A stretch of 64,000 bases of DNA from Actinomycetota bacterium (GTDB lineage Bacteria > Actinomycetota > Acidimicrobiia > Acidimicrobiales > Ilumatobacteraceae). How positions within the stretch are numbered: position 1 is the stretch's first letter; each line of letters begins with the position of its first letter. Below the pieces are notes generated by a model. The model did not search any database and had not been told where the DNA came from. It saw only the letters and a list, made by a program, of their open reading frames with translations. The DNA lies in contig VFZC01000003.1 in assembly GCA_016871355.1 (NCBI GenBank), positions 1-64,000 on the forward strand, read 5' to 3'. Below are positions 7,669 through 60,960 of the stretch, one piece after another. The position numbers and the translations under genes were made by a program.

Positions 7669-7724
7669 TGTGGGTCAGGAAGCGACCTGATGCGAAGTGA
7701 GATTCACTGCGTAGCCTGACGCCC

Positions 7725-10675: not shown

Positions 10676-10679
10676 GCGG

Positions 10680-10752
10680 TGGTCGAGACCGGCGTCGATC
10701 CGGTGACCCCACGCTTTTCAGGCGTGTGCTCTGCCAACTGAGCTACTCGACC
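10680..10752 (-). tRNA. tRNA-Phe (GAA)
   Basis: Acceptor arms GGTCGAG/CTCGACC pair fully. The anticodon stem CACGC/GCGTG encloses loop CTGAAAA, giving anticodon GAA. CCA is not encoded. It is the last tRNA of a Glu-Asp-Phe array, an order common in actinobacteria. Confidence 0.96.
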
Positions 10753-10778
10753 GTGTGCGTTCGGCGAACCGAATGCAC

Positions 10779-10855
10779 TGGCGGTCCCGACGGGACTCGA
10801 ACCCGCGACCTCCGGCTTGACAGGCCGGCGTGAACTCCAACTTCACCACGAGACC
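10779..10855 (-). tRNA. tRNA-Asp (GTC)
   Basis: Anticodon stem CCGGC/GCCGG encloses CTGTCAA, giving anticodon GTC. The T-arm GGGTTCGAGTCCC is present. The 3' CCA is encoded (10779-10781). Second gene of the array. Confidence 0.96.
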
Positions 10856-10868
10856 AGAACGAACTGGG

Positions 10869-10941
10869 CACCCCCAACGGGATTCGAACCCGTGCCGCCA
10901 CCTTGAAAGGGTGGTGTCCTAGGCCACTAGACGATGGGGGC
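10869..10941 (-). tRNA. tRNA-Glu (TTC)
   Basis: Begins GCCCCCATCGTCTAGTGG. The anticodon stem CCACC/GGTGG encloses CTTTCAA, giving anticodon TTC. No exact CCA follows the discriminator. It is first in the array, so the array promoter must lie in the 45-100 bases to its right, next to and possibly across the left copy of the 20-bp island repeat. Confidence 0.96.
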
Positions 10942-10985
10942 TAGGTACTTGTCCTGCTGAGAGCCTGACCAGCCTAGCGGAGGGT

Positions 10986-11005
10986 CACCGATGCCACACC
11001 GGGGC
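10986..11005. repeat. Left 20-bp direct repeat of the low-GC island
   Basis: CACCGATGCCACACCGGGGC occurs here and again, in the same orientation and without mismatch, at 19107-19126. The sequence between the copies is clearly AT-richer than the flanks and has different codon use, so the repeat marks the island boundary. Confidence 0.85.
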
Positions 11006-11086
11006 TCCCGATACCAACCCTGCCGCTTGCATGCTCCCGTGTCTTGAACCTGGCTCCCTGGGGAATACGGTGTCGGCTCAGGGCAG

Positions 11087-12484
11087 ATGGATGGTGCTAG
11101 CTGGAACTATTCTAAGGATGTGGTCCCTGAAGTTTTGGTCTGTCATTGCGTTGATACTGAAGGCCCTCTTAACGAGACTCTGCAGGGGACTATCGAATGC
11201 CTGCGGAAGACATTTGGGCTGCAAATTAGCGAGTCCCCCGAAGCTCTTCATGATTTGCAGACTGGGGGGAACCTGCAAGAACCTCTCAGGTCTGAGGTGA
11301 TTGCGTTTCTCTCTCGACGGTCGTTCAAGCGGGACTGGGCTGAGTTGGATGAAATGCTTGACGTCCTGATGTCTGCCGAATGGAGGGCGTCATTCAGAGA
11401 TGACTTTGGAATGGATTATGTGTTCAGCTGGTTCGTTGTTGATCTAGTCGGCAACTTCCTGAACCCGCGCTCCCGAAGTCTGGGATTCCATGAAATCTAC
11501 GAAAGATATCGAAGTCGGTTGGCCGATTCGGTCTGCCGACGAGATCGTCTTTACTGGCACCATCACCCGCCGTCGTTCACGCGGGAAGCTCACAAGACCT
11601 CAAACAACTTTTCGATGTCGAATGAACATTTACAAATTCTCGCTAGGAGGATTATCGATTACCTTGATTTTCCAGTTGCGTTCCGACCAGGTAGTCACTG
11701 CGAGAGGCCGGACATCAACCTTTTTCTTGAGCAATGGATCCCGTTTGACTTTGGAAACCAGGGCCGCGAAGAATCCTTGGGGGAATCTACTCAGCGGGAC
11801 ATTTCCTCAGGGCGATTCGGCGATTGGCGGAGAGCTCAAAGACAATGGGGGTTCTACCACCCCGACTTCCATGACTATCAGGTGCCGGGTTACATGAATC
11901 GTTTCATCGTGAGATGTCTCAACATTGACAGTCGCCTTCGTGTGCTTGACGAGGAAGAAATAGGGAAGGCTTTCACCCAGGCCCGCGAGCGCGGAGTCAG
12001 TCTTTTGTGCTTCACGAGTCATGACGAACGTGAAATGCGCCCTGCGATTCAGACAGTCGTGAATCAGATTCGTAACTGTCGGGACTCCGAATTTCCTGAG
12101 GTGAAGATCCGGTTTGTCAACGCTGTTGAGGGAATCAGAAAAGTTGCAGGGCTTACTCGACAGGATCCCATGAACCTCGAAGTTGCACTCGTGGGCAACC
12201 AGCTCAAGGTTTGTGCTTCAAAGCAGACTTGGGGTCCACAACCCTTCTTTTGTTTTAAGTTGAGAAACGGTCAGTATTTTTTCGAAAACTTAGACTTTGG
12301 ACTTCAGCCTCAAACTTGGAGTTTTACATTTGACGAGGATTCTGTCGAGCCGCATGACGTGATAGCAGTTGGTTTGGCTAGTCACGACAAGGTCGGAAAC
12401 ACCGTCGTCGTTCGGGGCAAGCCGTTTGAAGACGCTGCTTCGTGGGAGTTCAAACAATTGAATTCCGTTGATTGGCTTGGGTGA
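11087..12484 (+). CDS. Polysaccharide-deacetylase-like protein
   Basis: 465-residue protein with features of the NodB/polysaccharide-deacetylase fold, although divergent. These are an early CHCVDTEGP segment (the Asp-containing metal motif), HHHPPSF in the middle, FRPGSHCERPD, and LLCFTSHDEREM near residue 310, in the order expected for that fold. It could deacetylate a sugar or a lipid-linked intermediate, but no substrate can be assigned. The last 110 residues look like a separate beta-rich tail. There is no signal peptide, so it is probably cytosolic. A GTG at about 11120 is an alternative start. First gene of the island and 24 bases ahead of the methyltransferase; codon use is unlike the chromosome. 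Confidence 0.6.
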   Translation: MDGASWNYSKDVVPEVLVCHCVDTEGPLNETLQGTIECLRKTFGLQISESPEALHDLQTGGNLQEPLRSEVIAFLSRRSFKRDWAELDEMLDVLMSAEWRASFRDDFGMDYVFSWFVVDLVGNFLNPRSRSLGFHEIYERYRSRLADSVCRRDRLYWHHHPPSFTREAHKTSNNFSMSNEHLQILARRIIDYLDFPVAFRPGSHCERPDINLFLEQWIPFDFGNQGREESLGESTQRDISSGRFGDWRRAQRQWGFYHPDFHDYQVPGYMNRFIVRCLNIDSRLRVLDEEEIGKAFTQARERGVSLLCFTSHDEREMRPAIQTVVNQIRNCRDSEFPEVKIRFVNAVEGIRKVAGLTRQDPMNLEVALVGNQLKVCASKQTWGPQPFFCFKLRNGQYFFENLDFGLQPQTWSFTFDEDSVEPHDVIAVGLASHDKVGNTVVVRGKPFEDAASWEFKQLNSVDWLG

Positions 12485-12508
12485 CTAGGCGAGTGGGGGG
12501 GAGATGCG

Positions 12509-13180
12509 ATGGCCTGGGACGAGGCTTGGGAGGAGATTCACAACACCGAAGATCTCGGGCGCTATCCAAGTGAGCACTTGATCAGGTTTGTCAGGAGGAC
12601 ATTTGGCCCCCTGGAGTTGACGCGTCCGTTGAATGCACTCGAGGTTGGATGTGGACAGGGCGCCCAAGTTGCATTCTTGGCCCGCGAGGGTTTCTCGGTG
12701 GTTGGGGTTGACGGAAGTCGGGCAGCGATCGCAAAGGCGAACCGGTTTATGCGCTCTAGTGCACTTCACGCTGACCTGAGAGTGGGAGACGCGAATCAAC
12801 TGGACATAGCAGATGAAACGATGGATCTGGTTGTTGACGTGGAGTGCACGATGGGCTGCACGTTCTCAGCGGCGTCTCAGTTGATTGCAAACTGCTACCG
12901 GATTCTGAAGCCAGGAGGATGGCTCTTTTCGCAGACGTTTTCTGACGAAACCACCGTTGGCTCAAGTTTCGAAACTATTGATCGTTTGACGTACAGGAAC
13001 ATCGTTGGCGGGCATCTTGCTCGGAAGCGGTTGCTAAGACTTACTTCCAGATCCGATATCGACCTGTTGTACGCATGTTTCCCGTCGCGAGAGGTGAATA
13101 CGAGTTCGTACACAAGTGACTACGAAACAGCGCAGTCTGTTGAGTGGTTGATTGCAGCGAGGAAAGAACTTGTCAATTGA
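12509..13180 (+). CDS. Class I SAM-dependent methyltransferase
   Basis: 223 residues with motif I LEVGCGQGAQVAFLA, followed by VVGVDGSRAAIAKA (acidic loop binding the SAM ribose) and DLVVDVECTMGC (motif II/IV region), then LKPGGWLFSQTFS. This is the core of a Rossmann methyltransferase acting on a small molecule, sugar or carrier-bound intermediate. The start ATG has a GGGGGGAGATGCG leader with a reasonable ribosome-binding site. The stop overlaps the start of the next gene by 11 bases. Target unknown; the neighbours suggest a surface or secondary-metabolite pathway. Confidence 0.85.
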   Translation: MAWDEAWEEIHNTEDLGRYPSEHLIRFVRRTFGPLELTRPLNALEVGCGQGAQVAFLAREGFSVVGVDGSRAAIAKANRFMRSSALHADLRVGDANQLDIADETMDLVVDVECTMGCTFSAASQLIANCYRILKPGGWLFSQTFSDETTVGSSFETIDRLTYRNIVGGHLARKRLLRLTSRSDIDLLYACFPSREVNTSSYTSDYETAQSVEWLIAARKELVN

Positions 13181-14294
13181 TTTCAGAAATGTGCGCATCG
13201 CCGAGATACCTCTGGTTCGTGATCTCTTCGAAGGTTTTTATGGGTCTAATTATTGCGAAGTAGAGGACACCTACTTTCGGTGGCTTCACCGCGAAAATCC
13301 TGACCTGGGTCCGACGGTTGGAGATGATGAAGTCACAGCCTTTGGTTGTTTCGATGGCAAAGACCTTGTTGCGTGCATCAACTACGTTCCCTTCAAGCTC
13401 TTCGTCGGCGGAGAGTCCGTGAGTGCTTGTTGGTCAGTTGGCTGGCGATCGAAACCTGGACACGGCTCTTTGACAGGGTTACAACTGAGAAAACACCTTA
13501 GGAAATTCGACGTTTACATGAGTATGGGTGCAACCGATTGGGTGAGATCGATATATCAGTCAAGGTTCGGATTTGAGTACTGCAACAATATTGAACGGTT
13601 CTTGGCCGTGATCGATCCTCAAGCCTGTTTCGAATTGCTCGGCCGGAACAGGTGTCTTGCGGAAGCCGATAGAAGTTCGTTGGCGGAACTAGGTGCCAAA
13701 TCAGACCAGGCGCAAAGCACGAGTTTTTTTGAGTCTCAATGGGATAGTCTTGCCAACGAGTGTTACTGGTCAGATCATCTTTCTCGAACATCAGCCACTT
13801 GCTCCCGTAGATTCGAATGGCTCAAGTGGCGTTACAAAGACCATCCCCATTTGAAGTACGTCCCGATTTCTGCGGATCAAGATTCTGCAACTGGCGTTGC
13901 ATTTGTCCGTGTTGAGCAGATCCGAGACTTGGATTTTCGAGTTCTTAGGGTTTTAGACTTCCTTCCCACGTCAGGATCCGAAGCGGAACTTGCCTCCGCG
14001 ATTGTTGCTTACGGTTTCCAAGTGGGAGCCTCGTTTGTTGACTTCTTCTGCTCGTCGACGTCAGTTGCTGATGGTTTAGGTGAGGCCTTCTTTCGTGGTT
14101 CCGTGCGCCGAGATCTCGATTTCCCGAGGCTCTTCTTCCCTCTGGAGTGGCGGGAGCGTTGGAGCATCAACGCGTCTCTGAGGGATAACAGGAATAGTCC
14201 TGAATCCCTCAAACTTTCGGACGTGTACTTTACTAAGGCAGACCCCAGTCAGGATATTTTGCTCAATCGTGAGTACGTGACGAAGGGTTTGTGA
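13170..14294 (+). CDS. GNAT-like acyltransferase
   Basis: About 374 residues. The N-terminal half has a GNAT-like arrangement: EIPLVRDLFEGFYG, FGCFDGKDLVACINYVPFKL (strand pairs that normally hold the substrate), and MGATDWVRSIYQSRFGFEY, which resembles the end of a GNAT domain. The second half (KWRYKDHPHLKY, then two more strand-rich blocks) resembles the doubled GNAT fold of FemAB-like enzymes. The TTG at 13170 is chosen because GAGGAAAG sits just upstream; a TTG at 13152 is also in frame. It probably transfers an acyl or aminoacyl group, perhaps from the carrier protein encoded next. This is inference from context. Confidence 0.65.
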   Translation: MSIDFRNVRIAEIPLVRDLFEGFYGSNYCEVEDTYFRWLHRENPDLGPTVGDDEVTAFGCFDGKDLVACINYVPFKLFVGGESVSACWSVGWRSKPGHGSLTGLQLRKHLRKFDVYMSMGATDWVRSIYQSRFGFEYCNNIERFLAVIDPQACFELLGRNRCLAEADRSSLAELGAKSDQAQSTSFFESQWDSLANECYWSDHLSRTSATCSRRFEWLKWRYKDHPHLKYVPISADQDSATGVAFVRVEQIRDLDFRVLRVLDFLPTSGSEAELASAIVAYGFQVGASFVDFFCSSTSVADGLGEAFFRGSVRRDLDFPRLFFPLEWRERWSINASLRDNRNSPESLKLSDVYFTKADPSQDILLNREYVTKGL

Positions 14295-14545
14295 TGAAAG
14301 AAGGTCCCGCTTTCGATTTGGTCGACACGATCATGTCGACTTTGGCAGAGATGGCGCCCCTCGATGATGAGTTTTCCTCGCGCACTCACTTGTTATCAAG
14401 TGGGGTCATGGATTCAATGTCGGTTTTGGAGTTCGTTGAACGTCTTGAAAACCTACTTGGCGTTCACATTCCGGATGAACTTTTGGTTGAAGACTCTTTT
14501 GCTAGTGCAGAGAGGTTGGCGGAAGTGTTGAGAGCCCTTTTGTGA
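14294..14545 (+). CDS. Acyl carrier protein
   Basis: 83-residue acidic helical protein with SSGVMDSMSVLEFVERLE, the classic Asp-Ser phosphopantetheine attachment motif, followed by FVERLENLLGVHIPDELL. It is a stand-alone carrier that would hold an acyl or aminoacyl group as a thioester. The ATG overlaps the GNAT-like gene stop (TGATG) and has AAGGG 6 bases upstream. Its stop overlaps the GTG of the adenylate-forming ligase, which is the natural loading enzyme. No phosphopantetheinyl transferase lies in the island. Confidence 0.93.
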   Translation: MKEGPAFDLVDTIMSTLAEMAPLDDEFSSRTHLLSSGVMDSMSVLEFVERLENLLGVHIPDELLVEDSFASAERLAEVLRALL

Positions 14546-16086
14546 GTTTTGACCTGACCATCTCGGGTGTCTTGGAAACCTTCGCGGAACCCTCGCGAGC
14601 CGAATCAGCTGCCGTGCGTACGCGAGATTTCTGCTACAGCCGCAGCGACCTTCTTTCGAATGTGGCTCTATGGCAGGCCGACCTTGTCAATGTGAACCTC
14701 AAGAAGGGTGCCCGAGTGGCGGTCTACCTTCCGCGAGGTTTCGAAGAGATCTGTGTGATGATGGCTGCCTGGTCCCTTGGGATGATCGTGGTTCCTGTGA
14801 GCTCACGTCTCAGAGGGCCACAGGTTCGACATGTTCTTGCGGACAGCCGCGCCTCGGTCCTGGTGACATCAACTGAGTACCGGAGACGGATGGGGTTTGA
14901 GACTGACGACTTCGGCGGTTTGTTCTGCTTGATTGACGAGGTGATCGCTACGAGAAATGTTAGTCGGCCTTCGGTAAATCTGATTTCTGGTCCGAGTTAT
15001 CCAACGAATGCAGATGATGTCTCGACACTTCTCTATACCTCAGGGTCGACTGGCCTACCCAAAGGGGTGGTGCTGTCACATAGAAATCTGGTTGAAGGAG
15101 CTGCAGTTGTTTCCGGGTATCTGGGCCTAAAGCCTTCCGATTGCATTGCGGGTGTCTTGCCTCTGTCTTTTGATTACGGATTGAATCAACTGATTTCCTC
15201 GATACTTGTTGGGTGTGGATACGCGGCAATCGACTATTTCTTGCCACGCGACTTGGTCAATGCTGTAACGTCTCTTGGGGTGAGTGTTCTTGGTTTGGTC
15301 CCTCATCTCTGGAGTCAGATGATTGAGGCTTCGCTGAATGCTGGAATTTCGTACCCTGAAGTCAGAGTCGTAACTTCAAGTGGGGGTCACGTTCATGAGA
15401 AGGTGTCGGCTCAGATGGCTGACCTCTTTCCGAACGCTGAAATTTTCTTGATGTATGGATTGACCGAAGCCTTTAGGTCGACGTTTTTGGATCCCCGCAA
15501 GGTCACACTGAAGCCACGTTCAGTTGGTCGTGCAGTCCCTGGTGTTGAGATATCTGTGATGGACCAGAACGGGGGTGAGTGTCCCCCGGGAGAGGTAGGG
15601 GAAATAGTTCATCGCGGAGCGCTGATCTCACTTGGTTATTGGAACTCGCCAAAGGAGACTGACGACCGTTTTCGACGCCGGCCAGATGTGCCACCAGAGG
15701 TTTCTCGTTGCCCGCTCGAAGTGTGGTCGGGAGATCTTGGTTACAAGGATAAAGAGGGCGATCTCTTTGTGTTGGGCAGGAAGGACGGCTTGGTCAAGCA
15801 TAAGGGATTCCGGTTGAATGTGGGAGAAGTTGAGGAACTAGTTGCTTCTTGTCCGTCAGTGTTGGAATGTGTAGTGGTTCCTCGGGAGTCTCAGGATCTC
15901 CAAACGGAGTTGGTTTGTTTTTTGAGGGTTTCTGATGGATTTGGTAGAGACGAACTAGTGAAGCTGTTGCGTGGTAGTGCGCCCGATTACATGATCCCAG
16001 ACCATTTTGTGGTTCGAGAGTTCTTCCCCGAGACATCGTCCGGAAAGGTAGATCGCGTCGCCCTAGGTACGTCAAGCTTTGGTTGA
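14542..16086 (+). CDS. Adenylate-forming acyl/aminoacyl ligase (ANL superfamily)
   Basis: 514 residues with the full set of ANL motifs: P-loop LLYTSGSTGLPKGV, LMYGLTEA, the WSGDLGYKD aspartate loop and the C-terminal SGKVDR with the catalytic Lys. Such enzymes activate a carboxylate as its AMP ester and load it on CoA or on a carrier protein. The GTGA overlap with the carrier-protein gene points to the latter. Substrate specificity cannot be read by eye. It resembles ligases in exopolysaccharide and lipid-tail pathways as much as NRPS-type loading enzymes. The stop overlaps the start of the next gene (TTG at 16079). Confidence 0.92.
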   Translation: MSFDLTISGVLETFAEPSRAESAAVRTRDFCYSRSDLLSNVALWQADLVNVNLKKGARVAVYLPRGFEEICVMMAAWSLGMIVVPVSSRLRGPQVRHVLADSRASVLVTSTEYRRRMGFETDDFGGLFCLIDEVIATRNVSRPSVNLISGPSYPTNADDVSTLLYTSGSTGLPKGVVLSHRNLVEGAAVVSGYLGLKPSDCIAGVLPLSFDYGLNQLISSILVGCGYAAIDYFLPRDLVNAVTSLGVSVLGLVPHLWSQMIEASLNAGISYPEVRVVTSSGGHVHEKVSAQMADLFPNAEIFLMYGLTEAFRSTFLDPRKVTLKPRSVGRAVPGVEISVMDQNGGECPPGEVGEIVHRGALISLGYWNSPKETDDRFRRRPDVPPEVSRCPLEVWSGDLGYKDKEGDLFVLGRKDGLVKHKGFRLNVGEVEELVASCPSVLECVVVPRESQDLQTELVCFLRVSDGFGRDELVKLLRGSAPDYMIPDHFVVREFFPETSSGKVDRVALGTSSFG

Positions 16087-17245
16087 CTCTGACGCCCCGA
16101 GCATGTGGACACCGACGGTCATCTCTCCAGAGTTCAGTCGGTTTCTAGGCGTGACGGCCTTTGTAAAGACGGAAGAGGATGGCGAGGTTCCGTATCAGTC
16201 CACAAAGTCGCGTCGTCTGATTCCCTACCTCGAAGCTGTCCAACGAAACGGACTTCCTCACATCGTTACCTACGGACCCGTGTGGTCCAACCAGATCTTC
16301 CTCATTGCAGAGTTTTGTCGGATGGCAGGCATGGGGTGTTCGGTTCTCCTCCTGGATCCGGCGCCCCCTCATCTCTCAGATGCAGTCAATTTGTCGCCGT
16401 TGGTAGAACCAATAGAAGCGGGACTTGTCTCCTTAGGTGCCAAGGTTGAGATCGTTCCTCTTCCCAGGATGAAGTTGCTGCAGGTATTTGTCAAACGACA
16501 CCTAAGGAGGATTGAACGAGATTCTGGGAGTTGCCACATCGTTGAGTACGGATTCGTGCCACCGGAGACAGCGCAGAGTGCATCACTCGTCAAAGAGGTC
16601 CTCAGACAATATCGAGTCAATGGAGTCAACGGGCCGGTTGTCGTTCCTCGCGGTACGGGAAGTACAACTGAATTTCTCAGGTCGGGATTGGCAAGCTCAG
16701 GAATCCCAGTCGTAGGACTACCTCTGGTCGGAGAAGGAAACTCGCAATCGCTGGTGTCACTTGGGCCGAAGCGTCTCATTGCTGAACCTTCGGTTTACGT
16801 TGGCAGGGGTGACTTGGAGTTGTGTGCGTCAGGGACGCTCACCAACATTGATTTGTTCTACCACCTTGGTGCTCTGAAGTCTTTGAGGGTGCTGTCCAGT
16901 GGGAAGGACTTCTCTTCTGTTCTCTTTTTGAAAACTGGAAAGCAATCATTTGCATCGACGCTGCTGTTGAGGCAATTCGAAGAAGGACACGTGCGTTTGG
17001 ACCCGGATGAAATGCAACCCAGTCCAGATAACACTTACACCGCTTGGAAGGAGCGCCCAAAGCCTTCGCACCTGTATAGGCAGCTTCGATTTTTGAAGAT
17101 CAGTAATCAATGGACAAAAGAAAGATTGGAAGAGTGGCAGCTCCAGAGCCTCAACCGACTTCTTGTGCATTGTGTTAATAGTGTGCCGCACTACTCGCGG
17201 CACAAAGTTTTCAGGGACGCTGCTCATTCCGGGCTCAGCTGTTGA
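16079..17245 (+). CDS. PLP fold-type II-like domain, N-terminal part of a UGA-interrupted fusion
   Basis: Residues 30-320 resemble the tryptophan-synthase-beta/ACC-deaminase/D-cysteine-desulfhydrase fold. TKSRRLIPYLEAV is in the place of the PLP-lysine segment. HIVTYGPVWSNQ is a variant of the substrate-binding GGxQSN loop, and VVVPRGTGSTTEF is a Gly/Thr phosphate loop. The last 55 residues (from RLEEWQLQSLNRLLVHC to VPHYSRHK) are not part of that fold. They are the typical N-terminal helix of CapK/phenylacetate-CoA-ligase-like proteins. The frame then meets a single TGA (17243-17245) and continues open to 18391, so this is most likely the front part of one 770-codon gene. The start is a TTG overlapping the preceding stop; an ATG at 16103 is an alternative. 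Confidence 0.7.
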   Translation: MVDSDAPSMWTPTVISPEFSRFLGVTAFVKTEEDGEVPYQSTKSRRLIPYLEAVQRNGLPHIVTYGPVWSNQIFLIAEFCRMAGMGCSVLLLDPAPPHLSDAVNLSPLVEPIEAGLVSLGAKVEIVPLPRMKLLQVFVKRHLRRIERDSGSCHIVEYGFVPPETAQSASLVKEVLRQYRVNGVNGPVVVPRGTGSTTEFLRSGLASSGIPVVGLPLVGEGNSQSLVSLGPKRLIAEPSVYVGRGDLELCASGTLTNIDLFYHLGALKSLRVLSSGKDFSSVLFLKTGKQSFASTLLLRQFEEGHVRLDPDEMQPSPDNTYTAWKERPKPSHLYRQLRFLKISNQWTKERLEEWQLQSLNRLLVHCVNSVPHYSRHKVFRDAAHSGLSC

Positions 17246-17281
17246 GCTGAAATCTCAGACCTACCCACCATTGATAAGTCG

Positions 17282-18391
17282 ATGATTCGGGCCGATCCGG
17301 AATCGTTCGTTGACCAAAGCTACGAAGGAATTGTTCGAACACTGACAAGTGGAGGAAGTACGGGAGATCCTCTAGTGGTCACGTTTGATCATGGAGCTTT
17401 GGCCCGTGACAGAGCCAACACCTACTTTTACCTTTGGCTTCGCGGTCATAGTCCTAATCGAAGCAGATCCATCAGGCTGCATGGCGACGTGTTACCACGA
17501 GAAATTATTCGTTCAGGGAACTATTGGTTTGCTGCAACAAGGCGCAAACTCGTCATGTCGAATCAGCACATCGATTCTTCAACTATCGCCTCGTATCTGA
17601 GCGCAATCGACAGTTGGAGGGCTGACTACATCCATGCTTTTCCATCGACGGCCTTCCTACTAGCCAAGACCGCTCTGGACTGCGGTGTACGTTTGAAAAC
17701 GCGAGTGCCCTTCGTCTATGTCGATTCAGAAAATTTATACCCGGGTCAGCGTCGTCTGATCGAGGATTTCTTCGGTGGCGAGTTATGCCATGTGTACGGG
17801 CACACTGAAGGAGCAACGGTTGGTGTGCCCTTCCCTGGGAGTTCTGATTTTCATTTCTTGTCGCAGGTTGGTTTGGTGGAGATTGTCAAAGGTGACTTGA
17901 GTCAGCATTGGGAGCCAGGTGTCAATGGTGAATTGGTAGTCACCGGGCTAAACAACAAGATCTTCCCCTTGATTAGGTACCGAACCAACGATTTCGGGAC
18001 GGTTTCAAATGCGCTAGACCCGTTTTCTAGGTATCCGAGACTGTCCTCAATTGAGGGCAGAGAGCAAGATTTTGCTGAGGATCGGCATGGCAGAAGAGTC
18101 CCGGTGGCTCCCCTTCTCTTTGACTACAACATTGACTGGTCGGGGGTGAGCAGGTTCCAGGTTTGCCAAAAGTCGGTTGGGACCTTGGAAGTCAAGATTG
18201 TGGCTGAACAGAGCCACTCAGACTCGATCGGTCTGGTTAAGAGAGTTACAGAACAACTTGACACCGCATTCGGAAACAACTTCTCAATTAGCGTCCAGCC
18301 CGTTAAAACTCTAAGTGCGACAGCAAGGGGAAAGTTTCGTTACTTCGTCAACGAAGTTCCGCTACAAAAAACGAGCCGTAACTCGGGTTGA
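17282..18391 (+). CDS. CapK/phenylacetate-CoA-ligase-like adenylating domain, C-terminal part of a UGA-interrupted fusion
   Basis: Same reading frame as the preceding segment. The P-loop TLTSGGSTGDPLVV, VYVDSENLYPGQRR, HVYGHTEGATVG, and VVTGLNN...FPLIRYRTNDFG are the adenylate-forming motifs of the CapK/PaaK group. The family-typical DLPTIDKSMIR segment begins before the first in-frame ATG (17282), in the 12 codons after the TGA, so the annotated start is not the domain start. If translation really restarts at 17282, no good ribosome-binding site is visible. The 3' end overlaps the convergent methyltransferase by 44 bases. Possible states are nonsense mutation, read-through, recoding or a sequence error. 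Confidence 0.7.
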   Translation: MIRADPESFVDQSYEGIVRTLTSGGSTGDPLVVTFDHGALARDRANTYFYLWLRGHSPNRSRSIRLHGDVLPREIIRSGNYWFAATRRKLVMSNQHIDSSTIASYLSAIDSWRADYIHAFPSTAFLLAKTALDCGVRLKTRVPFVYVDSENLYPGQRRLIEDFFGGELCHVYGHTEGATVGVPFPGSSDFHFLSQVGLVEIVKGDLSQHWEPGVNGELVVTGLNNKIFPLIRYRTNDFGTVSNALDPFSRYPRLSSIEGREQDFAEDRHGRRVPVAPLLFDYNIDWSGVSRFQVCQKSVGTLEVKIVAEQSHSDSIGLVKRVTEQLDTAFGNNFSISVQPVKTLSATARGKFRYFVNEVPLQKTSRNSG

Positions 18392-19049
18392 CCGTTGGGC
18401 TGTTGGATGGTCGAAAGAAAGATGCTGCTTCCAGGTACTTAAGTTGAAAGTATTCGAGAATCTCGTCGTGAGTGGTGAAGAACTCGGTCCCGTACCCCTG
18501 CTCTCCCGGGCTATAGGTCGCCAGCATATGAATCAGATAGAGAGGTTGGTCTCTTGATTGAGCTTCCTTTTGGAGATTCCTCAGTACTGCCGCCAACTCT
18601 GGCAGGATGTACCACGTTATTTCGGCCATCACAATTACGTCTGGCTTCAACCGGTGAAGCAATTGTTCGTCACAAATGTTTCCGATGATGAAGCGGTTAG
18701 AACGGTGTGTTCTTCGAGCCTTACTGATCGCGGTCTTTGAAATGTCAACGCCCCAGGCATTGAAACCTAGATCACGGAGTCGAGCCGTCATGAAGCCGAA
18801 ACCGCACCCAAACTCAACAACGCGTAACCGCTGGCCACCGACTTTTTTGGCGGCCAATTTGCGGCACCACTCGACGGTCAGAAGCCGTCTTGACTCGTTA
18901 ACGATCACATCCTCTGACTGATTCCAAGGATCTCCAACGTTGTTGTAGAGGTCTTCGAACCGTCCTACAAACCGGCCTGCTGAGATCACGTAGAGGTGGT
19001 TCTCGCTGGGTTGATCTAAGGAATTATCTCGAGAGTTTGGATCGTTCAT
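18348..19049 (-). CDS. SAM-dependent methyltransferase (NodS-like)
   Basis: 233 residues with motif I VVEFGCGFGFMTARL, acidic loop AWGVDISKTAISKA, and DVIVMAEITWYILPEL in the position of the catalytic pocket strand. The order and the Trp-Tyr pair resemble the nodulation NodS/small-molecule N-methyltransferase group. That is similarity only. It is the only island gene on the - strand, overlaps the end of the CapK-like gene tail to tail, and shares the island's AT-rich codon use. Confidence 0.85.
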   Translation of the reverse strand: MNDPNSRDNSLDQPSENHLYVISAGRFVGRFEDLYNNVGDPWNQSEDVIVNESRRLLTVEWCRKLAAKKVGGQRLRVVEFGCGFGFMTARLRDLGFNAWGVDISKTAISKARRTHRSNRFIIGNICDEQLLHRLKPDVIVMAEITWYILPELAAVLRNLQKEAQSRDQPLYLIHMLATYSPGEQGYGTEFFTTHDEILEYFQLKYLEAASFFRPSNSPTVNPSYGSFFVAELR

Positions 19050-19106
19050 GATTAGTTGGACCTAGCCAGTTTGGAATGTAGTCGTCGTCAATCCGTGATT
19101 TGAGGT

Positions 19107-19126
19107 ATCCACCGATGCCACACCGG
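19107..19126. repeat. Right 20-bp direct repeat of the low-GC island
   Basis: Perfect copy of 10986-11005 in the same orientation. Codon use returns to the high-GC chromosomal type immediately to its right, 17 bases before the end of the DUF2017-like gene. Confidence 0.85.
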
Positions 19127-19143
19127 GGCGATTGTTCCGCTGG

Positions 19144-19617
19144 TCAGCGGGTCATGAGTGCGTTCACGGCACTGTCGACCAGCCACGAGAGGTATTGATA
19201 GAGCGCGAAGTCGGGACTCGTTGGGTCGTTGGGCTCGTCGTCATCGGCCACGCCAAGGAGAGTGCCGAGGATCAACCGCACCGCGTTGAGGCAGGACGCG
19301 AAGGCCTCCACCTCGGCCGTCGACATGGCGCGCCCGTCGGTGGCACCGAGGAATTCGTCGACCATCGAGATGGAACTCAAACGGCTGGCCACGAGTTCTT
19401 CGCGCATCAATCGCTGGTACTCCGAGTCGAGTGCTTCGTCGTCGGTGTAGGCGGGTGGAAAGAGCCGACGCGTCTTAGCGTCGTCGTTCGATCCGGTGGT
19501 GATCAACTCGCGCACTTCACCGATGAGGCGGCGCAACAAGTGACGCTGATCGTCGTCGAGGTTGAGCACGAAGCCCGACGACGTTCGGTACACGGGCTCG
19601 CGTCGGCGGCGAATCAT
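19144..19617 (-). CDS. DUF2017-like protein
   Basis: 157-residue acidic protein with [24 protein letters not shown] near the N-terminus. I recognise this layout from the DUF2017 family found next to clpS in actinobacteria. No catalytic motif is visible and the function is unknown. The ATG at 19617 overlaps the clpS stop (ATGA), so the pair is co-translated. A longer reading frame extends upstream inside clpS but is not needed. The gene ends 18 bases from the right island repeat, so the island inserted just downstream of it. Confidence 0.82.
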
Positions 19618-19958
19618 TCTGACGAACCCTTTCCGTTCGCTCCGTCCTTTTGCATGGTGGCCCACAGACCGTGTTCGTGCAGGCGGAACACGTCCATTTC
19701 GGCTTTCTCACGCGATCCGCTGCTCACGACGGCTTTGCCTTTGTGGTGCACGTCGAGCATGAGTTCGGTGGCCTTCTGCAGGCTGTAGCCGAATAACTTC
19801 TGGAGCACGTACGTGACGTAGCTCATGAGGTTGATCGGGTCGTTCCAGACCAGGACCACCCACGGATTGTCGGGCGCAACGGTTTCGTCGTCACGCTGAT
19901 CGGGTTTCTCGATCGTGGAGGGTGCCGCGGCGACCAGAGTCACGAACTCGATGCCCAC
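19614..19958 (-). CDS. clpS: ClpS, N-end-rule adaptor for ClpAP/ClpCP
   Basis: Small adaptor that hands proteins with destabilising N-terminal residues to the Clp protease. [20 protein letters not shown] is the family core; the NDP/hydrophobic pocket and the later [12 protein letters not shown] are intact. It has a 35-residue N-terminal extension, flexible and acidic, as is normal for ClpS. The GTG at 19958 is the first good start. It is divergent from ctaB with only 53 bases between, so their promoters must lie close together. Confidence 0.95.
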
Positions 19959-20011
19959 AGTTCCATTGTCGCGGTTGGCCAGGGGTTTCGCACCCCCGTA
20001 CCATCACGGTG

Positions 20012-20956
20012 ATGGCAACGCGCCCCCTCGTCCCGTCCCGGTTGGCTCCGGGTGGCGTGGCAGCCCATGGTCCTCGTCGCGCGCCGCGCTCGGTTCTGGG
20101 CGGCTATCTCGCTCTCACCAAGCCCCGGATCATCGAACTGCTCCTTATCACCACCGTTCCCACCATGGTGCTGGCCGAGCAGGGTTGGCCGAGTTGGGGT
20201 CTGCTTCTCATCACCTTGTTGGGCGGGAGCCTGGCCGCCGGTGGCGCCAACGCCATCAACATGGTCGTCGACCGCGACATCGACCAGTTGATGGAACGAA
20301 CCCGCAACCGGCCCCTCGTCACGGGCCTCATCGCCCCGCGCTCGGCCCTGGTTTTCGCCCTGGCCCTCGAGGCCCTGGCCTTCGCCGTGTTGTGGGCCGG
20401 AGCCAATCTGCTCTCGGCCGTGCTGGCCCTGTCGGCCACCCTCTTCTACGTCTTCGTCTACACCTTGTGGCTGAAGCGAACCAGCCGTCAGAACATCGTG
20501 ATCGGCGGGGCGGCCGGGGCCGTCCCGGTGCTGGTGGGCTGGGCGGCGGTCCGAAATTCGCTCGATTGGGAGCCATGTGTCCTGTTCACAGCTATTTTCC
20601 TGTGGACCCCGCCGCACTTCTGGGCCCTGGCCATCCGCCACGCCGACGACTACCGGGCGGCCAAGGTGCCGATGCTCCCGACCGTCTCCACCATGGCCAC
20701 CACGGTGCGTCACATGTTCACATACACCGTCGTTCTGACCGCCAGCACCCTCGTTCTGGCCCCGGTGGCCGACCTCGGACCCGTGTATTGGGTCTCGGCC
20801 CTGGTGCTGGGTCTCGGGTTCATGCTCGGCACCATCGACCTCGGTCGGAACCCGACTCCGGCCCGATCGATGCGCCTGTTCGCCTTTTCGATCTCGTACG
20901 TGACGGTTCTCTTCGTCGCGATGGCGGCCGACGTTCTCATCCGTCACGGGGTGTGA
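20012..20956 (+). CDS. ctaB: Protohaem IX farnesyltransferase (haem O synthase)
   Basis: UbiA-family membrane prenyltransferase making haem O, the precursor of the haem A used by the oxidase encoded downstream. NMVVDRDIDQLMERT supplies the Asp-rich prenyl-diphosphate motif. TPPHFWALAI with the following DDYRAAKVPMLP is the second conserved loop. About nine hydrophobic helices are visible. The ATG at 20012 (GTG at 20009 also possible) precedes a 30-residue basic leader. It heads the cytochrome oxidase region and is separated by 149 bases from the next gene. Confidence 0.95.
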   Translation: MATRPLVPSRLAPGGVAAHGPRRAPRSVLGGYLALTKPRIIELLLITTVPTMVLAEQGWPSWGLLLITLLGGSLAAGGANAINMVVDRDIDQLMERTRNRPLVTGLIAPRSALVFALALEALAFAVLWAGANLLSAVLALSATLFYVFVYTLWLKRTSRQNIVIGGAAGAVPVLVGWAAVRNSLDWEPCVLFTAIFLWTPPHFWALAIRHADDYRAAKVPMLPTVSTMATTVRHMFTYTVVLTASTLVLAPVADLGPVYWVSALVLGLGFMLGTIDLGRNPTPARSMRLFAFSISYVTVLFVAMAADVLIRHGV

Positions 20957-21105
20957 CTCTCGCTTCTTTGCCCTGGCAGATGGGGTCGTGATTTCGGTCT
21001 GACCTGGGGTGGGTGGGTAATCTTGGGGTTCGGATTTCTTTGTCCACCCCTGTCACCCCGGGAAGCCTCGGCATCCCTCCGTGCGCGAGAAGCGAGCCAT
21101 CTCGA

Positions 21106-22722
21106 ATGACATCCACCGAGACCCACCATGCGGCTGGAGCAGCGTCGTCGTCCGACGCGCCTGCCATCGCTGCGTGGCTCACCACCGCCGATCACAAGCA
21201 GGTCGGTCGCCTCTTCATCGGCACCGGTCTTTTCGGCCTGCTCGGCGGACTCGTTCTCGCCGTGCTCGTCGCGTCCGAACGCATCGATGCCGAGGGCTTC
21301 CAACTCCTCGACTCCGGTTCGGCCACACAGGTGTTGTCAGCGGCCCGACTCCTTCTCACGTTCGGTGCGGTTGCGCCTCTCGTGATGGGTCTGGCCGTGG
21401 CCATCGTTCCGTTGCAGTTGGGTTCGCGTTCCATCGCGTTCCCGCGGGTCGCGGCCAGCGGTTTCTGGATGTGGCTCACCGGTCTCACGCTGTCGGTGGT
21501 CGCCATCATCGGTAACGGTGGCCCGTCGGGTGGCGAATCCGAAATGGTCGATCTGTATCTGGCCGCGTCGGTAGTGATGGTTCTCGGTCTGGCTATGGCT
21601 GCGCTGTCCATCGCCGTCACCGGGCTCACATCGCGCACTCCCGGCATGGGATTGCTGCGCGCACCGTTCTTCTCGTGGTCGTCGTTCGTCGGATCGATCG
21701 CCCTGCTCATGAGCTTGCCGGTGTTCATCGGAACATCGGTGTACCTCTACGTCGATCATCGGTACGCACGAGCCGCGTTCGGTGGCAACTTCGGTGTGAA
21801 CAACTGGGTCGGTTGGGCCATCTCGCAGCCGTTCACCTATGTGCTCGCCATTCCGATCCTGGGCTTCGTACTCGACGCGGTGCCGGTGCTCGGTCGCACA
21901 CGTTTGGCTCAGCGTCCGGCCGCCAACGTTGCCGTCGGCCTGGTGTCGGTCGCGATCTTCGCGTCGCTCACGCATCGCGCGGTCACGTTGCCGTGGGACG
22001 GTGACGGATTCTTCTCGGGCCTCGGCACCAAGATCGCCGACCTTCTGCCGTTCGGACTCGTCAACGTGATTCCGCTGTTGGGTCTGCTCGGTGTGCTCGG
22101 TCTCACCCTGCTCACGCTCAAGAGCGCCAAGCCCATGCTGGCCGCGCCGCTTCCGTTCGCCGTGCTCGGCTTGCTCATGATTCTTCTCGGCGCCACATCG
22201 CACCTTCTGTACACCGTCGAAGACGCCGCACTCGGCGGCACCATCTTCGAAGCCGGCTCGTACGTGGCCGTCACGTTCGGCACCGTGCTCCTGGCGTTCG
22301 GTGGCCTCACTTACTGGGGTCCGAAGTTGTGGGGTCGTCGCATCCCCGACAAGGCGGCGCTTCCGCTCGCTCTGCTCGGTTTCGTGGCCACCGCCCTCGG
22401 CTCGTTGTCGTACATGATCGCGGGCTTCGCCGATCAGCCGGCGGGTGTGGTCGACGGCTTCGCGTACAGCGGTCCGCAAGAACTCTGGAACGTCATCACC
22501 ACCGGCGCGTTCGCACTCATGTTGCTCGTGAGTCTCGCGTTCGTCGGCCTGGCCGTGCGAAGTTTCACTGCGGGTGAAGCCGCGGGTGACGACCCGTGGG
22601 ATGGCACCACTCTCGAGTGGGCGACGTCGTCGCCGCCGCCCGCCGACAACTTCTCCGATCTGATCGTGGTCGGTTCGGAGTATCCGCTCGCAGACATCAA
22701 GAACTCAGGGAAGGTTGGCTGA
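21106..22722 (+). CDS. Degenerate cytochrome c oxidase subunit I paralogue
   Basis: 538 residues, about 12-14 membrane helices. It is clearly homologous to subunit I (PLQLGSRSIAFPR, ASGFWMWL, and a C-terminal LEWATSSPPPADNF matching LEWMTSSPPAEHNF of the true CtaD in this window). By eye alignment, five of six metal-ligand histidines are replaced: helix II by Ala80, the HPEVY His by Gln241 (Tyr245 kept), the second His of HH by Arg291, and the two of HFH by Ser385 and Val387. Only His290 remains. It therefore cannot bind haem a, haem a3 or CuB in the normal way. The ATG at 21106 is preferred over an upstream in-frame start. It overlaps the subunit III-like gene (TGATG). Confidence 0.85.
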   Translation: MTSTETHHAAGAASSSDAPAIAAWLTTADHKQVGRLFIGTGLFGLLGGLVLAVLVASERIDAEGFQLLDSGSATQVLSAARLLLTFGAVAPLVMGLAVAIVPLQLGSRSIAFPRVAASGFWMWLTGLTLSVVAIIGNGGPSGGESEMVDLYLAASVVMVLGLAMAALSIAVTGLTSRTPGMGLLRAPFFSWSSFVGSIALLMSLPVFIGTSVYLYVDHRYARAAFGGNFGVNNWVGWAISQPFTYVLAIPILGFVLDAVPVLGRTRLAQRPAANVAVGLVSVAIFASLTHRAVTLPWDGDGFFSGLGTKIADLLPFGLVNVIPLLGLLGVLGLTLLTLKSAKPMLAAPLPFAVLGLLMILLGATSHLLYTVEDAALGGTIFEAGSYVAVTFGTVLLAFGGLTYWGPKLWGRRIPDKAALPLALLGFVATALGSLSYMIAGFADQPAGVVDGFAYSGPQELWNVITTGAFALMLLVSLAFVGLAVRSFTAGEAAGDDPWDGTTLEWATSSPPPADNFSDLIVVGSEYPLADIKNSGKVG

Positions 22723-57349: not shown

Positions 57350-57996
57350 GGCTGTTCGACGATCCGGTCGAACTGCTGCCGTACGACGGCAGCGCAAGAT
57401 ATTGGGAATGGGCGCTGGGTGAGCGCAGCGCCGCGGCAACGCTCGCGCAATTGATCGACGACGTCGACTGGGAACAGCGCAGCATCGTGTTGTTCGGCAA
57501 GGAAGTGGACCAGCCCCGGCTCAACTCGTGGTACGGCGACGTCGCCTACACCTACTCGGGCATCACCATGACGCCACGCGCGTGGCTGCCGATCCTCGAC
57601 GAACTTCGGGCGGTGTGCGAGACGTTGAGCGGCGCGCGTTTCAACTCGGTGCTCCTTAATCTGTATCGCGACGGCCGCGACAGCATGGGCTGGCACGCCG
57701 ACGACGAAGTCGAACTCGGTCGCGAGCCGGTGATCGCTTCGCTGAGCCTGGGTGCGGTGCGCCGATTCCGGTTGCGCCACAACGAATCACGCGCCGTCGT
57801 CGATCGCGACCTAGCCAGTGGATCGCTCGTGGTGATGAGTGGTCTGTGCCAGCACGCGTGGAAGCACGAAGTTCCCAAGCAGAAGTCCATCACCGAACCG
57901 CGGGTGAACCTCACCTTCCGGTGGATTCACCCCGAACTGCTCACTCGCGGTCGAGACGCGGCCCGGCGATCCGCACGTCGCCACGACGGCGGGTGA
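57346..57996 (+). CDS. AlkB-like Fe(II)/2-oxoglutarate dioxygenase
   Basis: 216 residues. The double-stranded beta-helix motifs are all present: iron ligands H and D in MGWHADDE, the distal His in HAWKHEV, and the 2-oxoglutarate-binding Arg pair in RVNLTFRWI. FNSVLLNLYRDGRDSMGW is the family lead-in. It resembles the AlkB/ALKBH2-type DNA repair demethylases. GTG start overlaps the NfeD stop. The 3' end overlaps selB by 56 bases, tail to tail. Confidence 0.93.
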   Translation: MRLFDDPVELLPYDGSARYWEWALGERSAAATLAQLIDDVDWEQRSIVLFGKEVDQPRLNSWYGDVAYTYSGITMTPRAWLPILDELRAVCETLSGARFNSVLLNLYRDGRDSMGWHADDEVELGREPVIASLSLGAVRRFRLRHNESRAVVDRDLASGSLVVMSGLCQHAWKHEVPKQKSITEPRVNLTFRWIHPELLTRGRDAARRSARRHDGG

Positions 57997-59671
57997 TGCC
58001 ACGCGCGTCGAGTTCGGTGGCGATCGGAACCGCGTGCTTGCGGGTCACGCCCAGTGCTTCGCGGAACTGCGACATCGTGAAACCATCGGGGTGAGAAGCG
58101 AGCAAGGAAACGGCGGCCAGCCGTGCGGTCTTGAGTGCATCGACGTGGAACCACTCGCCGTCACGCTCGAAGAGAACGCCGGCCTTCTGCAAACGCCGTA
58201 GTTCGGCGTTGGTGAGCGCGATGGTTGCCGACGGTGCGCAACCGCCCGCGCGGATCACATCGATGTCGGAGTGCGACAGCAACGGATCATCAGCCCCTTG
58301 TGTTCGCGCGAATCCGCCCGAGACGGTGATGTCGGTGAACGTGGCGAGCAACGCACGTTCGCGGTCGTCGAGCGCGCTGATCTCGAGGCCCTCGGCGCCG
58401 GCCTCGGTCACGCGACGGCGCAGCGATGTTTCGGCTGCCGTCACGACCGCTGGGTCGACCACCCACTGAGCGACACTCGGCGATCGTGACACACCGGTGA
58501 AGCGGCGAAGTTCGACCGCGTCGATCCAACCGCGTTCGGCCACGATGCGATCGACGTTGGCGTGATCGTCGTCGAGGGGCTGCGCTCGTGAGGCCGTGAG
58601 CAGCGGTGCCACGTCACGAACCACGCCACCACCCACCGTTTCGTCACGGCCGCTCTCGCGAATCACGAAGCGGTCACCCATCACCAACGGTCGGGGTTCG
58701 GCCAGGTGCAATCGAACGAACCCGTGGGCGCCGGGTCGAATCGACTCGTCACCGAGCACGCGCAAACGAACCGGCAACTCATCGGAACCCACGTGCATGG
58801 TGTAGGCGCCGCGCCGCGTCACGTCGTGATCGAGAGAAGCCAGTGCCGTGAACGACGCGTCGAGCACCGTGGCCAGGTGCCAATCATCGGCTCGAACCAC
58901 CGCATGACCGCGTCGAACGTCACCGTGTTCGATGCCGCTGAGGTTGAGCGCCACCCGATGGCCGGGCTCGATCGATTCGACCGAGTGTCCATGAGTTTGA
59001 ATACCGCGAATGCGCACTTCGCGTCGAAGTGGCTGGACAACCACGCTGTCACCCACGGCGAGTGAGCCATCAGTGAGAGTTCCGGTCACCACGGTTCCGC
59101 TTCCTTTCGGCGCGAACACGCGATCGACGAACAAGCGCGGTCGGCCCCGATCGGGTGACCCGGTTGACGAATTCATCAGGTGGTCGAGTTCCTGTCGAAG
59201 ATCGTCGAGACCATCTCCGCGAAGGGTCGACGCCTTGACGATCGGTGCATCGGCCAGGAACGTGCCCACCACACGATCACGAATGTCGATGGCGGTGAGT
59301 TCGGCCTCGTCGTCGTCCACCAGATCGACGCGCGACACGACCACCACACCGTGTCGGGTGCCGGCCAGTTCGAGGATGCGCAGGTGCTCCTCGGTCTGGG
59401 GCATCCAACCTTCGTGCGCGTCAACCACCAGGATCGCGCCGTGAATACCGCCGACGCCCGCCAACATGTTGTTGATGAAACGGATGTGACCCGGAACGTC
59501 GATGAGCGACACCTCACGCCTGGACGGCAGTGTGAAGTGGGCGAAACCCAAGTCGATAGTCATGCCGCGTTCGCGTTCTTCGCGCCAGCGATCGGGGTTG
59601 GTGCCGGTGAGTGCGGTGACGAGCGACGACTTGCCGTGGTCGACGTGACCCGCGGTGGCGAAGATCCTCAT
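57941..59671 (-). CDS. selB: Selenocysteine-specific elongation factor
   Basis: 576 residues. The N-terminal GTPase starts [19 protein letters not shown], with [23 protein letters not shown] and a [11 protein letters not shown] in the place of NKxD. Domains 2-3 are like EF-Tu. The C-terminal half holds winged-helix repeats, which recognise the SECIS hairpin in selenoprotein mRNAs. The start overlaps the selA stop. selC and selD are not in the window. Confidence 0.95.
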
Positions 59672-60960
59672 CGTGAGGCGAGGGTCTGCCGCAGAGCATC
59701 GACCACGACGTGATCGTCGGATGGGTCGACGGTACGAAGATCGAGGATCGTCACGTCGTCACGTACGCGAGCGATCACCGGTGGCCGGGACGATCGCAGG
59801 GCTGCCGTGTGATCGCCGTCGATGGCCACACCCACCGACGGAATCGACGCGCCCGGTGTGCTGCCGGCGCCGGGTAGCGATTCGCACCGAACCACGCGCG
59901 CTCCGGCCACGTGGGTCGCGATCGATTCGGCTCGGCGCTGCAATTGATCGGTGCTCACCGAGGCTATGCGCCAGAACGGCACCTCGGCGGTCACGGTGCG
60001 CGCGAGGTAGGCGAGCATCACCTTGTGCAATGCGGCCAACACCAAGCCACCCGGACGAAGTGCCCGCGCCAGCGGATGCTGAGCGCACGAGGCCACCAAG
60101 TCGGCCCGGCCGGCGATGATTCCGGTCTGTGGTCCGCCCATGAGTTTGTCGCCGCTGAACGTGATGAGTGACGCGCCGGCTTGTAGCGATTGACGCGCGG
60201 CTGGTTCACCGTTGAGCCACGTCGGCGGACCCGAGTCGAGCCACGGGCACGCGGCATCGAGAAGACCCGATCCGATGTCGGCCACCACCGGAACGCCGAG
60301 CGTCGCCAACTCGCTGACCGGTGTGTCTTCCACGAAACCATCGATGCGGTAGTTGGACGGATGGACCTTCAACACCAGCGCCACGTCGTTACCTTTGCGA
60401 CCGATGGCCTTGCGGTAGTCGGCCACGCGCGTGCGATTGGTGGTACCCACGTCGACGAGCCGCGCACCGGACTGCTCCATCACGTCGGGAACTCGAAAGC
60501 CGCCACCGATCTCCACACTTTCGCCGCGACTCACCGCCACGTCGCGACCGGATGCCAGCGCGGCCAGCACGAGCAGAACGGCGGCCGCATTGTTGTTGAC
60601 GACCATCGCATCGTCGGCGCCGACCGCACGAGCGATGAGACGACCGATACCGCGCTGACGACTTCCACGACCACCGGTGGCGAGATCGAATTCGAGATTC
60701 TGCGCGCGCGGTGCCAGGTTGAGTGCGACAGGAGAGCGACCCAGGTTGGTGTGGGCGATCACACCCGTGGCGTTGATGACGGGAACCAGAAGCGAAGCGG
60801 CGATTCCCTCGGCGATGGAGGCTGCACGACTCGGGTCGCCGAGTGCGATCGCTTCGCGGGCCGCGTCCACGAGTAGTGGATGCGGAAGACCGGTGGATGC
60901 CAACGAACGAGCCAAGGTGTCGACCGACGGCGGTCGCTGCGCTGCGTCGTTCAAGGCCAT
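59668..60960 (-). CDS. selA: L-seryl-tRNA(Sec) selenium transferase
   Basis: 430 residues. PLP-dependent enzyme converting Ser-tRNA(Sec) to Sec-tRNA(Sec) with selenophosphate. VINATGVIAHTNLGRSP, NNNAAAVLLVLAALA and the PLP lysine in LITFSGDKLMGGPQ are diagnostic. The N-terminal domain (RPPSVDTLARSL) that binds tRNA(Sec) is present. The first gene of a selA-selB unit. Confidence 0.96.
   Translation of the reverse strand: MALNDAAQRPPSVDTLARSLASTGLPHPLLVDAAREAIALGDPSRAASIAEGIAASLLVPVINATGVIAHTNLGRSPVALNLAPRAQNLEFDLATGGRGSRQRGIGRLIARAVGADDAMVVNNNAAAVLLVLAALASGRDVAVSRGESVEIGGGFRVPDVMEQSGARLVDVGTTNRTRVADYRKAIGRKGNDVALVLKVHPSNYRIDGFVEDTPVSELATLGVPVVADIGSGLLDAACPWLDSGPPTWLNGEPAARQSLQAGASLITFSGDKLMGGPQTGIIAGRADLVASCAQHPLARALRPGGLVLAALHKVMLAYLARTVTAEVPFWRIASVSTDQLQRRAESIATHVAGARVVRCESLPGAGSTPGASIPSVGVAIDGDHTAALRSSRPPVIARVRDDVTILDLRTVDPSDDHVVVDALRQTLASR

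Follow-up and report, generated by a model that had tools for sequence, protein, structure and literature searches.

The interrupted frame and its in-frame stop

The stretch of DNA analysed here (the window) comprises 64,000 nucleotides, positions 1 to 64,000 of contig VFZC01000003.1 from an Actinomycetota bacterium (assembly GCA_016871355.1), whose draft genome (59 contigs, 2.20 Mb) is 86% complete. At 16079-18391 on the plus strand it holds a frame of 770 codons with a TTG start at 16079, whose single internal stop is a TGA at codon 389, directly preceded by a TGT (Cys) codon. A preliminary description of the window had placed the stop at codon 389 of 770 and the Cys codon before it, had recognized CapK features on both sides of the TGA, and had found the rest of the frame unbroken, and all of these observations held. 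The features of the frame are as follows:

16079..18391 (+), interrupted PALP-CapK fusion gene, 770 codons, with TGA at codon 389
16103..17038 (+), PALP-like part, putative pyridoxal 5′-phosphate (PLP)-dependent enzyme fold, D-cysteine desulfhydrase-like; approximate boundaries, from weak profile matches
17102..17242 (+), CapK/PaaK domain, first part before the stop, holding VPHYSRH (NF045666 read through; alignment A1)
17243..17245 (+), in-frame TGA; homologue column Leu in 19/36 and 51/80, Cys in none
17246..18388 (+), CapK/PaaK adenylate-forming domain, remainder (NF045666, E value of 3.5e-20; model matches 4r1m/4r1l and 2y27)

The NF045666 profile spans the TGA when it is read through, matching residues 342 to 661 (model positions 15 to 330 of 331) with 94.9 bits, compared with 72.3 bits for the downstream half alone. 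This gain argues that the gene was once continuous; the score lies below the curated cut-off of 300 bits of that equivalog. A structure model of the read-through CapK domain (alignment A4, 24 sequences; predicted local distance difference test [pLDDT] score of 88.6) retrieved in Foldseek the acyl-CoA ligase BT_0428 (4r1m; E value, 1.6e-22; template modeling score, 0.71), with 4r1l and PaaK1 (2y27; E value, 2.5e-21) among the other top PDB matches. In this model the TGA corresponds to residue 60 of the modelled stretch, at the beginning of a short helix inside the fold, and thus the stop falls within one folded domain rather than between two genes, and the locus as read encodes no single uninterrupted CapK/PaaK polypeptide. 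The motifs downstream of the TGA, namely, TSGGSTGDP, YGHTEG, RYRTNDFG, and the final GK, which we take to be those of adenylate-forming enzymes, read as intact. Codon-position G+C is similar on either side (0.59/0.44/0.55 in the PALP part and 0.54/0.44/0.53 after the stop), and decay is therefore not visible. Chance does not account for a 770-codon frame in which homology to the family extends to either side of the TGA.

The part upstream of the stop weakly resembles the PALP fold and is presumably PLP dependent. It matches PF00291 with an E value of 1.6e-4 and 21.6 bits, under the Pfam gathering threshold of 35, and NCBIfam PRK03910 with an E value of 0.009. A phmmer comparison with the D-cysteine desulfhydrase 4d8t gave a weak match (E value, 0.026), in which the Lys of QSTKSRR aligns with GGNKLRK; the Lys of such GGNK-type motifs is presumably the PLP-binding lysine. 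The single-sequence structure model of this part (pLDDT, 37.7) is of no use for the fold.

The stop column in homologues

Homologues are open at the site, as a nonsense pseudogene would require, in 36 of 36 rows of alignment A1 and in 80 of 80 loci from genome contigs. The residue at the stop, a check that the preliminary description had named, is mostly Leu: A1 shows Leu 19, Ala 5, Met 4, Phe 2, one each of Ile, Val, Gly, and Glu, and 2 gaps, and the second set shows Leu 51, Ile 6, Val 5, Phe, Lys, Ala, and Arg 4 each, and Pro and Thr 1 each. Cys occurs in 0/36 and 0/80 rows. The two sets overlap by at least two records (L020/L122 and L021/L128). A1 leaves out L024 (from genome G699, with a TAG elsewhere) and loci whose match does not span the TGA site, and the 80 loci are the best 80 of 460 confirmed stretches, found with search patterns from the N-terminal part of the CapK domain.

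Related genes elsewhere

The interrupted gene has no match in any of 23 congeners, and a first scan of genome contigs was also empty. At the level of the class, the first half is matched in 10 of 395 genomes, a count that includes the source genome; one of the 10 (G270) matches only via the CapK start, and two of the remaining loci, L011 and L012, encode stand-alone PALP-type enzymes. In the phylum, 150 of 396 genomes match, again including its own, and nearly all of the matches listed lie in CapK. No intact PALP-CapK fusion was found among 80 CapK loci (the best 80 of 460) screened with a small PALP profile, which hit none of them; the profile contained the window's own sequence, so that its match to the window is no independent control. 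Nor was one found in a nonexhaustive survey of the class and phylum matches listed, plasmids, and viral contigs, and the titles listed by literature searches included no paper on this fusion. On this sequence evidence, the PALP-CapK domain pairing appears new to the sets searched. At other loci, open reading frames (ORFs) read by eye give CapK a glycosyltransferase-like (L053) or a methyltransferase-like (L002) partner.

An in-frame TAG lies inside a CapK homologue of another genome (G699:C41, L217), some 70 residues beyond the position of the TGA in the domain. This comparison was drawn from the CapK matches listed with a stop, G529 (two TAG codons) being left out. Two further candidates were rejected: in G680 the TGA lies before the CapK domain, and in G732 no stop lies within the alignment.

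Location on an inserted island

The interrupted gene belongs to a low-G+C segment bounded by direct repeats, which the preliminary description had missed:

10867..10941 (-), tRNA-Glu beside the island
10986..11005 (+), perfect 20-bp direct repeat, left copy
11006..19109, low-G+C island between the repeats, 8,104 bp, 51.3% G+C, absent from congeners
19110..19129 (+), perfect 20-bp direct repeat, right copy

The island is foreign, inserted, and limited to the source bacterium among the relatives examined, as follows from its G+C content of 0.513, its tetranucleotide distance of 0.579 (8-kb pieces of the host reach no more than 0.281), and the empty site in relatives. Its G+C is 0.49 to 0.53 from 11 to 19 kb, compared with about 0.58 to 0.67 elsewhere in the window. 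The repeat occurs in only two copies genome-wide, allowing up to 2 mismatches, and is intergenic, about 45 nt from the tRNA-Glu on its 5′ side. In congener G010, 7001-11003 (90.1% identity) and 19117-21377 (91.7%) match contiguous DNA, as do 7001-11005 (87.1%) and 19110-20184 (86.1%) in congener G019, and both congeners carry the repeat region once. The gene at 19147-19665, which we take to be DUF2017-like, was found in 16 congeners, of which 11 were followed for the empty site; in nine besides these two, its homologue lies within about 0.7 kb of tRNA-Glu, and the site is empty in all 11. In G014, this flanking gene has a TGA near its N terminus, probably upstream of the true start.

The other named ORFs of the island are as follows:

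11087..12484 (+), 465-amino-acid ORF with no Pfam, NCBIfam, or PADLOC match
12509..13180 (+), methyltransferase (PF13649, 3.6e-19)
13152..14294 (+), GNAT-like protein, weak (PF13527, E value of 2.9e-4, under cut-off)
14291..14545 (+), acyl carrier protein (PF00550, 28.8 bits, over cut-off)
14542..16086 (+), acyl-CoA/acyl carrier protein ligase, like the exosortase A-associated type (PF00501, 2.2e-64; TIGR03098, 448 bits, cut-off of 592)
18348..19049 (-), methyltransferase (PF08242, 1.9e-8)

The sequence style of the 465-residue ORF is, we presume, like that of WalW/polysaccharide deacetylase. This cargo looks like one of a surface-polysaccharide or acyl-modification type. A scan of six island ORFs and the two halves of the interrupted gene, smaller ORFs excepted, found no recombinase family, and a search for a defence role gave only weak MADS2 methyltransferase matches.

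A probable nonsense mutation in an acquired gene

The best reading of the locus, and on balance a probable one, is that a PALP-CapK fusion gene acquired by horizontal transfer has recently taken a nonsense mutation. This had been one of several possibilities in the preliminary description, and the open homologues and the gain in score on read-through make it the best supported. The frame at 16079-18391 would once have been one gene, encoding a PALP-fold, presumably PLP-dependent domain and a CapK/PaaK-type adenylate-forming ligase. It would have come as cargo of the 8.1-kb island together with the acyl carrier protein, acyl ligase, GNAT-like protein, and methyltransferases, and after arrival a nonsense mutation would have fallen 60 residues into the modelled ligase stretch. 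The UGA would act as an ordinary stop, so that translation yields no more than 388 residues; the PALP part would then be complete and the ligase missing, which would make the gene a young pseudogene or one that keeps PALP activity at most. We infer that the mutation is real, recent, and later than the transfer and that termination is efficient, as we do the former role of the enzyme. The TAG at another place in the CapK domain of G699 supports this reading, as an in-frame stop elsewhere in the family.

Several points weigh against a recent nonsense mutation. The upstream part resembles PALP weakly, under curated cut-offs and with its single-sequence model at a low pLDDT. In the sets searched, neither an intact nor an interrupted copy turned up in a close relative, and recency thus rests on the intact look of the remainder. 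Intact downstream motifs are also what one would expect under suppression or read-through. Finally, a base-calling or assembly error, with the real gene intact, stays as the main rival. It is unlikely but deserves weight, since the event concerns a single base with all else intact and the assembly is a draft; against it, there is no direct sign of an error, and no other broken gene was recognized among the island ORFs.

Read-through and re-initiation

A real but tolerated stop, where read-through, or the PALP part together with a ligase piece re-initiated at 17282, keeps some function, is less probable again. Two features near the stop bear on it:

17235..17250 (+), perfect 6-bp hairpin over the stop (TCAGCT-GTTG-AGCTGA), a chance-level feature
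17282..17284 (+), possible re-initiation ATG, the first in frame after the stop, without a Shine-Dalgarno sequence

Both parts of the gene look intact, and the ATG lies 36 nt past the TGA. However, its anti-Shine-Dalgarno pairing is only −1.9 kcal/mol, a strength that 74% of 409 internal start-like codons equal or surpass; this argument is limited by the fact that strong pairing is not universal among the starts of other genes (−3.8 for TTG 16079). A ligase piece from 17282 would also miss residues 342 to 401, where the CapK fold begins; VPHY, with its near-invariant Pro and Tyr, lies among these residues, as does a Pro conserved without exception in A1, A2, and A4. Re-initiation at this ATG, as the preliminary description had considered, is therefore a weak proposal, and a split of the same kind was seen at no other locus.

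A particular form of tolerance, in which partial read-through of the UGA lets a single mRNA supply the PALP protein along with a minor fraction of the two-domain enzyme, with the stop-spanning hairpin setting the ratio, is highly improbable. Positive evidence for programmed read-through at this TGA is absent. The hairpin over the stop, which had been remarked on in the preliminary description, is real, but perfect hairpins of this kind (stem of at least 6 bp, loop of 3 to 8 nt) number 183 in the window and cover 4.1% of its bases, and one over a given codon is therefore unremarkable; the interrupted gene has 5, covering 3.2%. The weak hairpin said to follow the stop also exists, with 6 bp at 17269-17284 instead of 5 bp at 17270-17283, and folds no better than shuffles (z scores of −0.6 and −0.1). 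An Rfam search around the stop gave nothing credible.

Selenocysteine

That the UGA encodes selenocysteine, which the preliminary description had also considered, is scarcely credible, even though the genome holds the full machinery and a Cys codon directly precedes the UGA. The genes for selA and selB, already reported there, were confirmed with matches over cut-off:

57941..59671 (-), selB (TIGR00475, 310 bits)
59668..60960 (-), selA (TIGR00474, 403 bits)

A selC gene lies at C9:70000-70091 (65.4 bits), and selD is present in the genome (324 bits). In the excerpted text of PMC1088965, homologues with Cys at the UGA position in most cases serve as a selenoprotein criterion; here, Cys never appears in the 36 and 80 homologous rows. 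The bacterial selenocysteine insertion sequence (bSECIS) was assessed by a rule taken from the excerpted text of PMC13188914: a small apical loop with G in its first two positions, 16 to 37 nt after the UGA, and a minimum free energy of −7.5 or less. The energy limit applied to the bare stem failed the Escherichia coli fdhF control, and the rule was therefore applied to the minimum-energy structure. It was thus adjusted on fdhF, leaving as independent control an AhpD-like CxxU frame of the same genome that is itself only a prediction.

Both controls pass at 45, 50, and 55 nt, fdhF with loop GGTC at 18 nt and the AhpD-like frame with loop GGC at 20 nt on an 8-bp stem, whereas the sequence after the TGA fails at all three lengths. 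In its minimum-energy structure, loop AATC falls at 5 nt and loop TAAG at 29 nt, the correctly placed one (UAAG) lacking G in the first two positions; a 4-bp pairing with a G-first loop of 8 nt is possible if inner pairs stay open. The rule alone is weak, as it is passed by 13 to 29% of TGAs taken arbitrarily from the island or window. Fold energies relative to shuffles separate the controls poorly (z scores of −1.6 for the AhpD-like frame, −0.7 for fdhF, and −0.4 for this site), and the argument therefore rests on the loop and the homologues. Together, the bSECIS failure and the homologue column without Cys leave little room for selenocysteine at codon 389, which on these sequence grounds is very unlikely and was rejected.

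The AhpD-like frame is a candidate selenoprotein in its own right (G000:C4:2240-2242, minus strand; L214). It came from a PF02627 search, carries CVVU, is AhpD/YciW-related, and matches NF053654 (“YciW-related (seleno)protein”) with 70.2 bits, the cut-off being 310. A selenocysteine formate dehydrogenase was sought as an in-genome control, and no internal TGA was present among the TIGR01591 matches listed. Across 24 genomes of the genus, selC is over cut-off in 21, yet the formate dehydrogenase-type matches listed lack an internal TGA, and SelW (PF10262) was found in 0/24.

A donor code that read TGA as a sense codon would suit the foreign composition of the island but is close to negligible, as the other six named island ORFs, read with table 11, stay open and contain no internal TGA, where several would be expected.

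Comparison with known systems

Read through, the gene shares fold and motif order with the CapK/PaaK ligases (phenylacetate-CoA ligase family; NF045666, TIGR02155, 4r1l, and 2y27) but, unlike them, it falls under every curated cut-off, stands behind a PALP-like domain, and is broken by the TGA. With nonsense pseudogenes in acquired islands, it has in common one premature stop, an intact remainder, and a place among the cargo of an island absent from congeners, and nothing in it is distinctive in this comparison. Bacterial selenoproteins with a bSECIS (for example, E. coli FdhF and CxxU proteins of the AhpD-like type) likewise combine an in-frame UGA with full selenocysteine machinery in the genome, whereas the interrupted gene has no Cys homologues, redox motif, or fitting bSECIS. 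The additive flexible genomic islands of Methylophilaceae, described in the excerpted text of PMC10872708 as lying next to tRNA genes with 20-nt repeats, resemble this one in variable-presence cargo, 20-nt direct repeats, and a tRNA neighbor; to the extent of that text, they differ in that the repeat here is intergenic rather than a tRNA end and has two copies only.

There is nothing special about either the stop or the hairpin, and the finding is an ordinary one. Its value lies in discarding what could easily have been mistaken for a selenoprotein. An in-frame UGA beside a Cys codon, in a genome with selA-selB, is insufficient; the AhpD-like CxxU frame of the same genome provides the contrast, since there a bSECIS that passes the same test follows the UGA. 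Of modest side interest are the PALP-CapK pairing, an island with exact 20-bp ends without a recognized recombinase, and the candidate selenoprotein.

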